Made by a program: the position numbers and the translations under genes. DNA of 64,000 bases. Source: Streptomyces pactum (GTDB lineage: Bacteria; Actinomycetota; Actinomycetes; Streptomycetales; Streptomycetaceae). The notes under the pieces were generated by a model. It searched no databases. It saw nothing but the letters and a program-made list of their open reading frames with translations, and was not told the DNA's origin. Shown one piece after another: positions 29,334 to 46,090 of this stretch (positions are counted from its first letter, which is position 1; every line of letters starts with the position of its first letter). The stretch covers positions 5,411,501 through 5,475,500 of the forward strand of contig NZ_CP019724.1 in the NCBI RefSeq assembly GCF_002005225.1, in the 5' to 3' direction.

Positions 29334-29341
29334 GTTGTCGG

Positions 29342-29415
29342 TGCGCCGCCAGGGACTCGAACCCCGGACCCGCTGATTAAGAGTCAGCTGCTCTAACCAA
29401 CTGAGCTAGCGGCGC
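29342..29415 (-). tRNA. tRNA-Lys (anticodon CTT), copy 1
   Basis: A 74-nt cloverleaf: acceptor GCGCCGC/GCGGCGC, D-arm GCTC...GAGC, anticodon arm GCTGA-CTCTTAA-TCAGC giving anticodon CTT, and a TTCGAGT T-loop. No CCA is encoded. The sequence is identical to the copies at 32637-32710 and 46010-46083. Confidence 0.97.
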
Positions 29416-32630: not shown

Positions 32631-32636
32631 CCACTG

Positions 32637-32710
32637 TGCGCCGCCAGGGACTCGAACCCCGGACCCGCTGATTAAGAGTCAGCTGCTCTAACCAACTGAG
32701 CTAGCGGCGC
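32637..32710 (-). tRNA. tRNA-Lys (anticodon CTT), copy 2
   Basis: It is identical over all 74 nt to the copies at 29342-29415 and 46010-46083. It has the same CTCTTAA anticodon loop and no encoded CCA. It is followed at its 3' side by a strong hairpin. Confidence 0.97.
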
Positions 32711-40924: not shown

Positions 40925-41794
40925 ATGGACATCTCCTTTCTCGGCGGACCAGCTCCGCAACGCGGGGTCGGCGTGGTCGCCCCGTTCGACTTCGCACTCG
41001 ATCGCGAGCTGTGGCGATGGGTGCCCGACGACGTGTCGCTGCACATGACGCGAACCCCTTTTGTGCCCGTCGAGGTCAGTCTGGACCTCGCCCGGCTGGT
41101 CAGTGAACACGAGACGCTCGGCGAGGCCGTGCGCACCCTCAACGCCATCACGCCCGAGGTGATCGCCTACGCCTGCACCTCGGGCAGTTTCGTCGGCGGC
41201 GTCGTCGGTGAACGCGCGATGTGCGAGGCGATGACCTGGGCGGGCGCGGTCCCGTCCGTGACCACCTCCGGCGCGCTGCTGGACGCGCTGGCCGAGCTGG
41301 GCGTGCGCCGGGTCGCGCTGGTGACGCCGTACACCGTCTCCGTGACCCGGGCGCTGGAGGCGTACGTCGCCGAGGCCGGTGTGGCCGTCACCGGCTGCGC
41401 CTTCATGGGGCTGACCCGGCACATCTGGAGGGTCCCGTACCGCGACGTGGCCGACATGGCCCGCCAGGCGGTACCGAGTCCGGGGTCGGCGGACGCCCTG
41501 TTCATCTCGTGCACCAACCTCCCCACCTACGACGTCATCCCGCAGCTCGAGGCCGAACTGCGGATCCCGGTGATCTCGGCCAACCAAGTGACGATGTGGG
41601 CGGCGCTGCGCCGATTGGGTACCCCTGCGGTGGGGCCGTATCAGGCGCTGACCGATCCGTCCGCGCGCATCGGCCCCACGGTGCCGGGGCCGGTCGGCCC
41701 CGCAGTGGCGGGCCCGGTCGGTCCCGCGGTGGCGGACATGCCGGGCGTCGGTGACGGCCCGGAGACGGAACAGCAGCAGGAAGGGTGGACATGA
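40925..41794 (+). CDS. Maleate cis-trans isomerase / Asp-Glu racemase-fold enzyme with collagen-like tail
   Basis: 289 residues. Residues 1-240 form the two-domain Asp/Glu racemase fold. Both catalytic cysteines are present: YACTSGSFVGG and FISCTNLPTYDVI. This is the pattern of maleate isomerase and of EutA of ectoine clusters. The last 45 residues form a repetitive tail (GPVGPAVAGPVGPAVA) of collagen-like composition, not part of the fold. I chose the ATG at 40925; GTG codons at 40907 and 40916 are in frame. The stop overlaps the next start (ATGA), so the two paralogues are co-translated. Confidence 0.85.
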   Translation: MDISFLGGPAPQRGVGVVAPFDFALDRELWRWVPDDVSLHMTRTPFVPVEVSLDLARLVSEHETLGEAVRTLNAITPEVIAYACTSGSFVGGVVGERAMCEAMTWAGAVPSVTTSGALLDALAELGVRRVALVTPYTVSVTRALEAYVAEAGVAVTGCAFMGLTRHIWRVPYRDVADMARQAVPSPGSADALFISCTNLPTYDVIPQLEAELRIPVISANQVTMWAALRRLGTPAVGPYQALTDPSARIGPTVPGPVGPAVAGPVGPAVADMPGVGDGPETEQQQEGWT

Positions 41795-42522
41795 CAGCAC
41801 TGGGATTCCTGTACCCGGGCCACTCCGGCGAGGACGACTATCCACGCATCGAGCAGCTCCTGGGCAGCGACATCCGGGTGGACCTGGTGCACACGGACAT
41901 CGGCGAGGACGCGCACCGGGTCGACGCGCTGCGCGAGATGGGCTCACCGCAGCGGCTCGCGGCGGGCGTGGCGGAGCTGCGGCTGGCCGGCGCCGACGCC
42001 GTGGTGTGGGCCTGCACCAGCGGAAGCTTCGTGCACGGCTGGGACGGCGCCCAGGAGCAGGTGCGCGCCCTCGCCCAGGCGGCGGGCCTGCCCGCTTCCT
42101 CCACCTCCTTCGCCTTCGTGCACGCGGCGAAGGAGATCGGGGCGCGGCGCGTCGCGATCGGGGCGACCTACCCGGACGACGTGGCACAGCTCTTCGCGGG
42201 CTTCCTCCGCGCCGCCGGCATCGAGACGGTGGATGTCGTCAGCTCGGGCGTCATCACGGCGGCGGAGGTCGGCACCTGGACCGAGGCGGAGGTGCTGGCC
42301 CTGGCCCGCGCCGCCGACCGCCCGGACGCGGAGGCGGTCCTCCTCCCGGACACCGCCCTGCACACGGCGGCCCACATCCCGGCCCTGGAGAAGGAACTGG
42401 GCAAGCCGGTCCTCACCGCCAACCAGGTGACCATCTGGGAGGGCCTGCGCCTGGCCGACCGCCGGGTCAACGCACCGGAGCTGGGCGCGCTGTTCACCCG
42501 GGAGCCGGTGGTGCAGGCCTGA
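41791..42522 (+). CDS. Second Asp/Glu racemase-fold enzyme, single catalytic cysteine
   Basis: 243 residues, paralogous to the preceding gene. The first cysteine is kept in VWACTSGSFVHGWDG. The second cysteine position reads LLPDTALHTAAH, with Asp instead of Cys. One-cysteine members of this fold include arylmalonate decarboxylases, where the missing residue abolishes racemisation, so this copy may decarboxylate or may pair with its neighbour. The ATG at 41791 overlaps the upstream TGA by 4 bp with AGGAAGG as ribosome site. It has no tail and is the end of the catabolic group. Confidence 0.85.
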   Translation: MTALGFLYPGHSGEDDYPRIEQLLGSDIRVDLVHTDIGEDAHRVDALREMGSPQRLAAGVAELRLAGADAVVWACTSGSFVHGWDGAQEQVRALAQAAGLPASSTSFAFVHAAKEIGARRVAIGATYPDDVAQLFAGFLRAAGIETVDVVSSGVITAAEVGTWTEAEVLALARAADRPDAEAVLLPDTALHTAAHIPALEKELGKPVLTANQVTIWEGLRLADRRVNAPELGALFTREPVVQA

Positions 42523-42737: not shown

Positions 42738-42817
42738 AGGCCGACGACTCGATCGACGCGAACTCGACCGACGACTCGGCCGACACGGACCCGGAAGCAC
42801 GGGCCCGGCCACACGGA

Positions 42818-42853
42818 AGAACCCCGGTCCCGCTGGAGCGGGGCCGGGGTTCT
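42818..42853 (-). terminator. Terminator of the atypical tRNA-Gly
   Basis: AGAACCCCGGTCCCGCT and AGCGGGGCCGGGGTTCT form a 17-bp stem with one G-U pair and a 2-nt loop (minimal loop 4-6 nt if the closing pairs open). On the minus strand it starts 5 nt after the 3' end of the tRNA-like gene. Confidence 0.85.
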
Positions 42854-42858
42854 CTTCG

Positions 42859-42928
42859 AGCGCTGGGCAGGCCTTGCACCTGCATTTCCTCACGGGAAGT
42901 GAGGCGTCTTTCCTTGGACCACCAACGC
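42859..42928 (-). tRNA. Atypical tRNA-Gly (anticodon TCC) with GUGC T-loop
   Basis: A 70-nt cloverleaf can be drawn on the minus strand. The acceptor is GCGTTGG/CCAGCGC with one G-T pair. The D-arm is GTC...GAC with A14, G18, G19 and A21 in place. The anticodon arm is CCTCA-CTTCCCG-TGAGG, giving UCC. The variable region has 4 nt, the T-stem is GCAGG/CCTGC, the T-loop is TGCAAGG and the discriminator is T73. G1-C72, C2-G71, U73, C35 and C36 are known bacterial glycyl-tRNA synthetase identity elements, and all are present. The T-loop has G at position 55, so GTPsiC reads GUGC, as in the staphylococcal tRNA-Gly that serve peptidoglycan synthesis. No CCA is encoded. An intrinsic terminator follows. 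Confidence 0.7.
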
Positions 42929-43120
42929 ACTGCCGACCGTTGGGGGTTGAACCCCGCGAGCTGGCAGGATGATCGTATCGCAGCTCCGCCCGGGACGCAC
43001 ATCGGCTGTGCGTCGGGGGTGTCGGATCCACTTTTAGTTCACGAACATGTACGTCGATCGACATCCTGAACTCGTGCAAGCCCTTGCCAGCCCCTGATAG
43101 GGACCCTATTCTCACGGCGA

Positions 43121-43132: not shown

Positions 43133-43204
43133 CCGCCCGTCGTGTTGACATGATCACGACAGGTAGCTCGTTCCGGCACGTGAAGGCGAATGGGGAGACC
43201 GAGG

Positions 43205-44773
43205 ATGAGACGACCAGTCGCGCTGCGACTCAACGCGGCGCTGGCCACCTTGGCCGTTGCCGCGGCCACCGGTGTGGTGCTGTCGATGCCCGAGGCGGCG
43301 GCAGCGGCCAGTGGCGCCACCGGCTACGCCACCCAGAACGGCGGCACGACCGGCGGCGCGGGCGGACAGACGGTCCGGGCCACCACCGGAACCGCGATCC
43401 ACCAGGCCCTGTGCGGCCGTGCCAGCAGCAGCACCCCGATCACCATCGAGGTCGAGGGGACCATCAACCACGGCAACACCAGCAAGGTGTCGGGCGACAG
43501 TTGCAGCACCGCCGAGGACAAGATCGAGCTCAAGCAGATCAGCAACGTCACGATCGTCGGGGTCGGCGGCGGTGCCGTCTTCGACCAACTGGGCATCCAC
43601 ATCCGTGAGTCCAGCAACATCATCATCCAGAACGTGACCGTCCGGAACGTCAAGAAGTCGGGCTCGCCCACGTCCAACGGCGGCGACGCCATCGGGATGG
43701 AGAGCGGCGTCCGCAACGTCTGGGTCGACCACACCACGCTGGAGGCGTCGGGCGGGGAGTCGGAGGGCTACGACGGCCTCTTCGACATGAAGAACGACAC
43801 CCAGTACGTGACCCTGTCCTACAGCGTCCTGCGCAACTCCGGCCGCGGCGGCCTGATCGGCTCGAGCGAGAGCGACCGCTCCAACGGCTACGTCACCTTC
43901 CACCACAACAAGTACGAGAACATCGACTCCCGTACCCCCCTGCTGCGCGGCGGCATCTCCCACATCTACAACAACCACTACGTGGACCTGCACGAGTCCG
44001 GCATCAACTCACGCGCCGGCGCCCGGGCCAAGGTCGACAACAACTACTTCCAGGACTCCAAGGACGTCCTCGGCACCTTCTACACGGACGAGGCCGGCTA
44101 CTGGCAGGTCAGCGGCAACATCTTCGACAACGTGACCTGGTCCGAACGCGAGGGGGACAACAACCCCGCCGGGCCGGACCCGCGGTCCAACACCAGCGTC
44201 AGCATCCCGTACTCCTACAACCTCGACGCGGCCGACTGCGTGCCGGGCGTGGTGAGCCAGACCGCGGGCGCGGGCAAGGGGCTGAAGGTCTCGGACGGAA
44301 GCTGCACGCCGCAGAACCCGGACCCGACCGACCCCGGCCCCACGGACCCGGGCCCCACCGACCCGGACCCGGACCCGACCGACCCCGGTCCCACTGATCC
44401 GCCCACCGGCACCAACCTCAGCATCGGGGCGGGCTCCGACGGTTCCTCCAAGGCCGCCGGGACGAGCTACGGCAACGTCCGGGACGGTGACATGGGCACC
44501 TACTGGTCCCCGACCGGCTCGACCGGTTCCGTCTCCGTGAAGTGGGGCTCCGCCACCACCGTCTCCAAGATCAACATCCGTGAGGCGGCGGGCTCCGAGG
44601 GGAACATCGGATCCTGGCGGGTCGTCAACCACGACACGGGCTCGGTCCTGGCCTCCGGGAGCGGAGCGGGCGTCATCGGCTTCGCCCGGACCTCGCTGGA
44701 GAAGATCACCTTCGAGATCACCGGCTCCAGCGGCACGCCGAGGGTCGCCGAGTTCGAGACCTACGCCGGCTAG
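43205..44773 (+). CDS. Secreted pectate lyase (PL1) with C-terminal beta-sandwich module
   Basis: 522 residues. The signal peptide is followed by a PL1 parallel beta-helix of about 340 residues: TPITIEVEGTINHG, KIELKQISNVTIVGVGGGAVFDQLGIHIRESSNIIIQNVTVRNV, GGDAIGMESGVRNVWVDHTTL, DGLFDMKNDTQYVTLSYSVL, and the catalytic-region RTPLLRGGISHIYNNHYVD. An Asp-Pro/Thr-Pro linker (DPTDPGPTDPGPTD) leads to a 110-residue F5/8-type discoidin-like sandwich (SDGSSKAAGTSYGNVRDGDMGTYWSPTGSTGSVSVKWG), probably carbohydrate-binding. It cleaves polygalacturonate by calcium-dependent elimination. The ATG at 43205 has GGGAGACCGAGG upstream. Confidence 0.92.
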   Translation: MRRPVALRLNAALATLAVAAATGVVLSMPEAAAAASGATGYATQNGGTTGGAGGQTVRATTGTAIHQALCGRASSSTPITIEVEGTINHGNTSKVSGDSCSTAEDKIELKQISNVTIVGVGGGAVFDQLGIHIRESSNIIIQNVTVRNVKKSGSPTSNGGDAIGMESGVRNVWVDHTTLEASGGESEGYDGLFDMKNDTQYVTLSYSVLRNSGRGGLIGSSESDRSNGYVTFHHNKYENIDSRTPLLRGGISHIYNNHYVDLHESGINSRAGARAKVDNNYFQDSKDVLGTFYTDEAGYWQVSGNIFDNVTWSEREGDNNPAGPDPRSNTSVSIPYSYNLDAADCVPGVVSQTAGAGKGLKVSDGSCTPQNPDPTDPGPTDPGPTDPDPDPTDPGPTDPPTGTNLSIGAGSDGSSKAAGTSYGNVRDGDMGTYWSPTGSTGSVSVKWGSATTVSKINIREAAGSEGNIGSWRVVNHDTGSVLASGSGAGVIGFARTSLEKITFEITGSSGTPRVAEFETYAG

Positions 44774-45410: not shown

Positions 45411-46019
45411 ATGAGCCACACACGCGATGTCGCCCCCGGTGCCTCCCCCCACGTCTCGGACGTCACGTCCGAGGGGGCCGCCTGGCTGGCCTCGGCGGCC
45501 CCGCACCCGCGCGGCACGCTCGGGTTCTGGGAGGAACGGCCGCAGGCGCCGGTCGTCCTGCCCTGCGGTTTTGCCTTCGACGTGGTGAGCGCTCCCGCGG
45601 TCTTCGGGCGCCGGATGCTGGACCGCATGTGGGACGACGGCCCGGGGTCCGGCCCGGTGGCCGAGTTCCGGGGCCGGATGCTGCTGTTCGCCGCGCCCGG
45701 CACGGCCCAGCGGCTGCCGTCGCTGCTGGAGTGGGAGGAGTGGAGCGCGCGCGGCCGGGAGGGCGGCCGTACCGGTGCGGTGCCGCCGCTGCTGTGCCAC
45801 GGCGCCGGGGACGCGGTGACCGTGCCGGCCCCGGCGGGGGCCCCGGCCTGTTCCGGGGCGCGCTGGCTGGTGGCGCCGGACACGCGCCGGCCCTGGCTGC
45901 CGGGCCCGGATATCCTGCTCTGGGCGGCCGTACGGGCGGCCCGCGCGGCGGTGCGGATTTCGATTTTTCCTCCCGCCGACCAGGATGCTAAGGTCTACGA
46001 CGTCAGCAGGCGCCGCTAG
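45411..46019 (+). CDS. Prim-pol-like small protein (bifunctional primase/polymerase N-terminal type)
   Basis: 202 residues. The block GAAWLASAAPHPRGTLGFWEERPQAPVVLPCGFAFDVVSAPAVFGRRMLDRM is the streptomycete small protein family usually annotated as bifunctional DNA primase/polymerase N-terminal-like. The segment PAPAGAPACSGARWLVAPDTRRPWLPGPDILLWAAVRAAR is typical of its C-terminus. The catalytic acidic pair of real prim-pols is not convincing here, so an enzymatic role is doubtful. The ATG at 45411 is used. Its stop codon lies inside the downstream tRNA-Lys (10-bp overlap). Confidence 0.7.
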   Translation: MSHTRDVAPGASPHVSDVTSEGAAWLASAAPHPRGTLGFWEERPQAPVVLPCGFAFDVVSAPAVFGRRMLDRMWDDGPGSGPVAEFRGRMLLFAAPGTAQRLPSLLEWEEWSARGREGGRTGAVPPLLCHGAGDAVTVPAPAGAPACSGARWLVAPDTRRPWLPGPDILLWAAVRAARAAVRISIFPPADQDAKVYDVSRRR

Positions 46020-46083
46020 CTCAGTTGGTTAGAGCAGCTGACTCTTAATCAGCGGGTCCGGGGTTCGAGTCCCTGGCGGCGCA
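46010..46083 (+). tRNA. tRNA-Lys (anticodon CTT), copy 3
   Basis: It is identical over all 74 nt to the copies at 29342-29415 and 32637-32710 but on the plus strand. The first 10 nt overlap the 3' end of the prim-pol-like gene. It is followed by a strong hairpin. Confidence 0.97.
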
Positions 46084-46090
46084 CAGACGA

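Follow-up and report, generated by a model that had tools for sequence, protein, structure and literature searches.

The window, a 64,000-nucleotide stretch of Streptomyces pactum DNA, carries a tRNA gene on the minus strand at 42859-42928. The gene is 70 nt long, does not encode the 3' CCA, and is a genuine tRNA-Gly(UCC) whose T-loop reads GUGC. ARAGORN predicts a tRNA-Gly(tcc) on the minus strand at 42858-42928, and Rfam RF00005 gives the gene 42.4 bits (cut-off 29). By Rfam bits it ranks third from the bottom of the 69 tRNA matches in the genome, and a fast-filter Rfam scan did not pick it up. The family of this tRNA is referred to here as the patchy GUGC tRNA-Gly; a separate GUGC tRNA-Gly(UCC), the universal one, is described below.

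The RNA folds as a cloverleaf (-31.2 kcal/mol, z -3.2) with a 7-bp acceptor stem that includes one G.U pair, a 5-bp anticodon stem, and a 5-bp T-stem. The D-stem has just three standard pairs, with C13 and A22 mismatched. Sequence and family alignment place G18G19 in the D-loop region CAAGGAAA (42909..42916, minus strand), which lacks positions 16-17. The anticodon UCC (U34 C35 C36; 42895..42897, minus strand), assigned by ARAGORN and the family alignment, lies in the loop CUUCCCG (42893-42899, minus strand), where base 37 is C. The T-loop is UGCAAGG (U54 G55 C56 A57 A58 G59 G60; 42872..42878, minus strand), which gives GUGC at positions 53-56, and the discriminator is U73. The preliminary description of this DNA had reported an atypical minus-strand cloverleaf of 70 nt with UCC, U73, a GUGC T-loop, and intact acceptor, anticodon, and T stems. 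ARAGORN, Rfam, and the sequence bear this out, and the atypical features are C37, the three-pair D-stem, the absence of 16-17, and GUGC.

The same genome has an ordinary tRNA-Gly(UCC) (G000 C1 5694064-5694134), which shares the anticodon, U73, G1-C72, C2-G71, and G3-C70 with the window tRNA. Its GUUC, A37, G49-U65, and G51-C63 set it apart from the window tRNA, which has GUGC, C37, and A51-U63; this is the comparison that the preliminary description had proposed. The ordinary tRNA scores 71.6 Rfam bits versus 42.4. The window tRNA has neither the purine 37 nor the GUUC T-arm of an elongator tRNA-Gly(UCC), and it does have the elongator's U33 and 7-nt anticodon loop.

A -10-like hexamer, TACGAT, lies within TGCGATACGAT at 42972..42977 on the minus strand, 43 nt upstream of the tRNA. 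Across the family, a raw count finds 233 of 245 copies with TANNNT at a distance of 36-62 nt upstream, and in 152 the distance is 46-48 nt. Anchoring on TANNNT yields the consensus TGcGcTAtgNT; this element, followed by gatct.gagc, is conserved ~40-50 nt upstream of patchy-family tRNAs. No -35 consensus was found upstream of the 245 copies, and TGcGcTAtgNT without a -35 perhaps indicates a special sigma factor or an activator.

Downstream, an intrinsic-terminator hairpin folds at 42816..42853 (minus strand), beginning 5 unpaired nt after the tRNA. The distance is as the preliminary description gave it; the helix is not the 17 bp claimed there and has 16 pairs and one internal mismatch. The 3' 50 nt of the 245 copies average -34.1 kcal/mol versus -16.6 for shuffled sequences (one simple shuffle each).

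The convergent neighbor encodes an arylmalonate-decarboxylase/Asp-Glu-racemase family protein (Amdase; 41785..42522, plus strand; Pfam PF17645, PF01177), and the divergent neighbor encodes a pectate lyase (43190..44773, plus strand; Pfam PF00544). Neither is a conserved partner of the patchy tRNA in the loci compared. Amdase matches were found in 37 of 81 genomes, and among the 30 loci inspected the tRNA lies within 1.5 kb downstream of Amdase at the window's own locus only. One other genome (G150) has an Amdase-like gene beside a patchy-family copy. No clean empty site for the window locus was found among the 30 Amdase loci, because the flanks are rearranged too. A role as a cis-regulator or cis leader was rejected: a codirectional gene begins within 300 nt downstream in only 22 of 77 loci, and the genes that follow the tRNA may face either way.

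Within 17 kb of one another, the window also holds three tRNA-Lys(CUU) genes of identical sequence and score (Rfam, 68.4 bits), at 29340-29415 (minus), 32636-32710 (minus), and 46010-46084 (plus). They are possible integration sites of mobile elements.

Conservation and genomic placement of the family

A blastn search with the gene and its flanks matches the tRNA body in 51 of 101 Streptomyces genomes, including the window's own; the raw tally was 52, and G030 was excluded, as its matches cover terminator-like sequence only. Carriers hold 1-6 copies each. The other 50 genomes gave no blastn body match, and in three of these non-carriers (G023, G056, G088) a covariance model of the family gave nothing above 46 bits.

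The 32 distinct bodies have a mean column identity of 93%; the alignment leaves out identical bodies and the 5'-truncated L091, and a second alignment set (A2) left out identical bodies and one tRNA-Arg. The carrier and copy counts leave out a single match in G070 and another in G087, neither of which covers the body. Two-sided changes occur at 6 stem pairs, versus 2.0 +/- 0.9 in shuffles, and 97.8% of stem cells are paired, versus 36-47% after sliding. The tertiary partners U8-A14, A15-U48, G19-C56, and U54-A58 are invariant in all 32. G18G19, which the preliminary description had noted as retained, is present in 31 of the 32, the window's included; the exception is L093.

Among 246 copies, counted as distinct by flank, 242 have the T-loop TGCAAGG; the pattern behind this count itself required TGC, and the blastn set did not. 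Pattern searches also required parts of the D- and T-arms and a 5' GCG, which conditions their counts; the unconditioned blastn set agrees. The preliminary description had named loss of the stems in related Streptomyces and a freely varying T-loop as marks of a decaying pseudogene. The covariance model, run over Streptomyces, and the compensatory stem changes speak against decay, and the T-loop is near-invariant.

The covariance model, built from the 32 bodies, was run on 297 Streptomycetaceae genomes and matches 142 of them at E 1e-5. In 90 of the 142 the match is strong (E 4e-17 or better): 87 belong to the genus itself and 3 to other genera (G105, G185, G200). A class-wide sample gave strong matches in 12 of 16 own-genus genomes and in 0 of 181 others. 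The weaker matches of 38-51 bits that were read (all but L374, L380, and L381) are ordinary tRNAs, the universal GUGC tRNA, or tRNA-like genes of the sister genus g14. ARAGORN recognizes 4 of 13 patchy-family loci submitted.

A distant relative with UCC in another genus of the family (G176, L196/L447; 60.6 bits) has the T-loop UGCAAAU and the D-loop AACAGCA, without GG. The sister genus g14 has a further GUGC tRNA-like gene (L197-L199, L220; L444-L446), present as three copies within 3 kb in two genomes, with the anticodon loop CUUUCAG (U35, not C35) and the T-loop UGCAACC.

The patchy tRNA is carried on 67 plasmid records, 65 from Streptomyces and 2 from Streptantibioticus. Laboratory strains with the family include S. 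clavuligerus ATCC 27064, with 4 matching places on its plasmid record, and S. griseofuscus DSM 40191. Phage records and viral contigs hold no match to it, and a phage origin was rejected on that ground. Placement was analyzed with all blastn body matches on 21 contigs above 5 Mb. On these chromosome-sized contigs, 18 of 25 copies in multicopy genomes sit in the outermost 10% of one end or the other; those at the ends of G091 and G068 are probably paired through terminal repeats and so are not independent. Single-copy genomes have 2 of 13 copies in this outer part. Carriers have larger genomes (9.2 versus 7.9 Mb). Paralogues compared in five genomes (2-5 copies per genome, not always all) are 97-99% identical in the body, 55-85% in the leader, and 53-57% in distant flanks. 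Judged by these sequence distributions, the family is accessory at the least, and mobile if read further.

Directly upstream of two copies, on plasmids of S. goshikiensis and S. coeruleorubidus (L359, L362), lie genes for a primase/polymerase, a P4-type primase, and DUF6009; this module is absent from four other annotated contexts. One genome, counted with 5 copies (G024), includes among them the 5'-truncated L091 (C53), possibly an integration remnant.

Decoding features, glycine determinants, and known relatives

The 246 copies have 24 anticodon-arm types. A 7-nt loop is present in 220, nearly all of them CUUCC(U/C)G, and position 37 is a pyrimidine in 218 of the 220. The window copy, like most of the main group, has U33 in such a loop. 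The remaining 26 copies have 6-nt loops (CUCCAA, AUCCAA, CAACCG, CAGCCG, CAUCCG, CUGCCG); U33 is absent from most of them, and position 34 may be U, A, or G. The loss of U33 and of the 7-nt loop falls in side lineages (L081-L090, L094, L193-L195). CC aligned with C35C36 is kept in all 24 types despite changes at 32, 33, 34, and 37 and in loop length, although in the 6-nt loops this assignment was made by eye and needs two registers. Ordinary tRNAs of the window genome have U33 and A/G37 in 41 of 41 distinct sequences read, which are part of the set.

Glycine determinants in bacteria are G1-C72, C2-G71, U73, C35, and C36; those of Thermus further include G10 and C50-G64, and Thermus GlyRS also recognizes U16 (PMC9976931). 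In the patchy family, G1-C72, C2-G71, U73, and G10 are found in all 32 distinct bodies and C50-G64 in 30, with U-G in the other two. U16 is missing. The pattern of sequence conservation points to selection on charging rather than decoding.

Staphylococcal wall tRNA-Gly(UCC), as the preliminary description gives it, has GUGC in place of GUUC, escapes EF-Tu, and hands its glycine to the wall through Fem proteins; papers speak of altered loops in these tRNAs (PMC4052509, PMC8007984, PMC9976931). One of them describes the replacement of the strong EF-Tu pairs G49-U65 and G51-C63 by A49-U65 and A51-U63, and of GG at 18-19 by UU or CU (PMC4052509). In the window genome, five ordinary tRNA-Gly sequences have G49-U65 and G51-C63 when read by eye. 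The 32 distinct patchy-family bodies have A51-U63 in 31 and G49-C65 in 30.

The patchy family resembles the S. aureus non-proteinogenic tRNA-Gly(UCC) (Giannouli et al. 2009) in the UCC anticodon, the glycine determinants, the altered T-loop, A51-U63, and several genes per genome. It differs from them in having GG18-19 rather than UU or CU and G49-C65 rather than A49-U65, and is not filed with the staphylococcal wall tRNAs for these two reasons. It is also unlike them in its short D-loop lacking 16-17, its pyrimidine 37, its 6-nt anticodon-loop variants, and its patchy, plasmid-borne spread.

The tRNA-Other of Bacillus cereus is tRNA-like, is said to be non-translational, and is linked to wall phenotypes and mobile DNA (PMC3399842). 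The patchy family is similar in being a tRNA-like gene on mobile DNA. tRNA-Other lies inside longer transcripts and in one genome; unlike it, the patchy tRNA is a family with a nearby -10-like element, a terminator, and kept glycine determinants.

The universal GUGC tRNA-Gly(UCC) and the cell wall

In the Streptomyces wall, one glycine forms the bridge, and a FemX-type enzyme adds it. The preliminary description had proposed that the window tRNA is dedicated to this cross-bridge. Part of that overall reading stands: the tRNA is atypical, is conserved, has the glycylation determinants, and probably acts outside translation. The cross-bridge role in particular lacks support. FemAB is present in 101 of 101 Streptomyces genomes, 50 of which have no match to the tRNA, and a different GUGC tRNA-Gly(UCC), found in all 101, fits better.

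This universal tRNA lies in the window genome at G000 C1 4587428-4587499 (L414, L221), adjoining a tRNA-Gly(GCC). Its model scores at least 94 bits in every one of the 101 Streptomyces genomes, and the next group of matches reaches 72. Of the 101 genomes, 95 were read and 94 copies located, and all 94 have GUGC and A18G19. The anticodon loops are normal (CUUCCAG or UUUCCAA, with U33 and A37), A18 with G55 stands for the usual G18 with U55, and the T-stem has a bulged U. In one ortholog outside the genus (L215), GG and GUUC occur side by side, from which positions 18 and 55 are taken to change together. Genomes carry 1-3 copies, three in a few (e.g., G018), and ARAGORN missed the gene in 4 of 7 loci submitted.

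The universal tRNA shares UCC, U73, the GUGC T-loop, and A51-U63 with the patchy family. In the class sample it exceeds 75 bits in 16 of 16 own-genus genomes and in 0 of 181 others, 81 of which have FemAB; it is thus a trait of the genus and its family and no general companion of FemAB. By its presence in all 101 Streptomyces genomes, it would fit a universal wall role better than the window tRNA, although the FemAB-bearing genomes outside the genus that score no more than 75 bits count against such a role.

A link between the patchy tRNA and wall enzymes was sought in gene content and neighborhood. Carriers have somewhat higher numbers of FemAB and of the LPG-synthase family PF09924 (p 0.05 and 0.005, kinship ignored). 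The link is gone after genome size is accounted for (logit -0.03 versus 1.34 for size; p 0.23, kinship ignored). With size allowed for, tRNA copy number is likewise unlinked to FemAB number, against a dedicated cross-bridge role. Only two FemAB stretches, read as one protein, are present in 16 of 51 carriers and 21 of 50 non-carriers. Among 645 called genes at 81 loci, no neighbor family recurs in more than 6 loci; those reaching up to 6 are an orthologous locus, which we take to be tsaD and its neighbors, and a scattered oxidoreductase family. Pfam assignment of the 143 nearest neighbors (proteins of 60-650 aa) places no more than 3 in any family. The 25 commonest of the 141 Pfam families matched by these flanking proteins do not include FemAB, which also counts against the cross-bridge proposal. 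Proteins near some copies look by eye to be GH3- and alginate-lyase-like, and the window has its pectate lyase; a link to carbohydrate-active enzymes was considered and dropped.

GlyRS is present in all 101 Streptomyces genomes, with three matched stretches in 97 and four in the other four (two carriers, two non-carriers). These genomes give no sign of a dedicated second GlyRS.

Function and alternatives

The locus belongs to a real, conserved family of atypical tRNA-Gly, whose most likely role is to carry glycine outside translation. The conserved fold, the kept GlyRS determinants, the broken decoding features, the -10-like element and terminator, and the multicopy, plasmid-borne spread are apparent from sequence; from these we infer transcription, charging, EF-Tu escape, a transferase, and an acceptor. 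The specific proposal is a functional, self-transcribed tRNA-Gly taken out of translation, to which we give roughly even chances. The housekeeping GlyRS would charge the tRNA with glycine. The weakened T-arm and decoding-deficient anticodon loop would then hold most of it off EF-Tu and the ribosome, and the glycine would be handed to a non-ribosomal acceptor. If one enzyme had to be guessed for the acceptor step, it would be a FemABX-type (GNAT-fold) transferase; the patchy family would then be an auxiliary donor of glycine to the wall, or to a wall-like product, in addition to the universal GUGC tRNA. Wall supply is possible as a side role, though not favored as the main one.

Several observations run counter to this proposal. 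The searches by co-occurrence and neighborhood gave no transferase or acceptor: FemAB and LPG-synthase numbers do not follow the family once genome size is accounted for, and neighbors do not recur at the loci compared. The retained GG18-19 and G19-C56 may keep an elbow suited to translation factors. U33 and the 7-nt loop persist in the main group, and weak GGA decoding is possible. The C35C36 of the 6-nt loops is placed by eye, in two registers. The U35 of the g14 gene breaks the C35 rule, if that gene belongs with the patchy family.

A regulatory or decoy tRNA-like RNA, whose C-rich loop pairs with ribosome-binding sites or which titrates GlyRS, a tRNA nuclease, or a toxin, is an unlikely but serious alternative. 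It would account for the -10-like element at 233 of 245 copies, the stable 3' hairpin, the C-rich loop in all 24 arm types, and the multicopy accessory spread, and the B. cereus tRNA-Other offers a precedent (PMC3399842). However, the conserved sites are tRNA tertiary and GlyRS positions, including U73, and not the loop alone, and a cis-leader version meets the scarcity of codirectional genes within 300 nt downstream (22 of 77 loci). It is improbable that the gene is an ordinary extra tRNA for GGA codons that diverged by chance. UCC, U33, and the 7-nt loop of most of the main group, the window copy included, would suit such a role, but an ordinary tRNA-Gly(UCC) with GUUC, U33, and A37 is present in the genome as well, and neither a tRNA with C37 nor the 6-nt-loop lineages, which mostly lack U33 and have A, G, or U at 34, would decode normally.

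That the window tRNA is the dedicated donor of the peptidoglycan glycine bridge through FemX is very improbable, even with its GUGC T-loop, UCC, A51-U63, and glycine determinants and with FemAB in every one of the 101 genomes. Against it stand the 50 of 101 genomes without a match, the different tRNA-Gly(UCC) in 101 of 101 (GUGC in 94 of 94 read), and a copy number unrelated to FemAB number after genome size. Hardly any weight falls on the idea that mobile elements have spread a tRNA pseudogene or the remnant of an attachment site. The plasmid and subtelomeric copies, the 5'-truncated L091, and L093, changed in both D- and T-loop, would agree with it; the compensatory changes, the near-invariant body, and the -10-like element and 3' hairpin that accompany almost every copy do not.

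Returning to the carrier reading, its more ambitious form is a mobile, multicopy tRNA of Streptomycetaceae that has dropped decoding and acts purely as a glycine carrier for a novel tRNA-dependent glycyl transfer, beside a universal GUGC tRNA that would serve the wall. We regard this form as tentative, at somewhat less than even chances. Among the matches listed in open-licence literature, with subscription papers and preprints outside scope, no title or abstract concerns either GUGC tRNA-Gly family. For most instances in which aminoacyl-tRNA is drawn away from translation for wall synthesis, the mechanism has been called somewhat unclear (PMC4052509). If the carrier reading is true, a tRNA is kept purely as a glycine carrier and has spread on plasmids and chromosome arms. 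A single Streptomyces cell would then offer two unlinked GUGC tRNA-Gly families, with ordinary tRNA-Gly as controls. Deletion of the patchy family could leave the universal GUGC tRNA intact, and the relatives of the patchy tRNA with 6-nt loops would make a natural series in which charging and decoding can be told apart.
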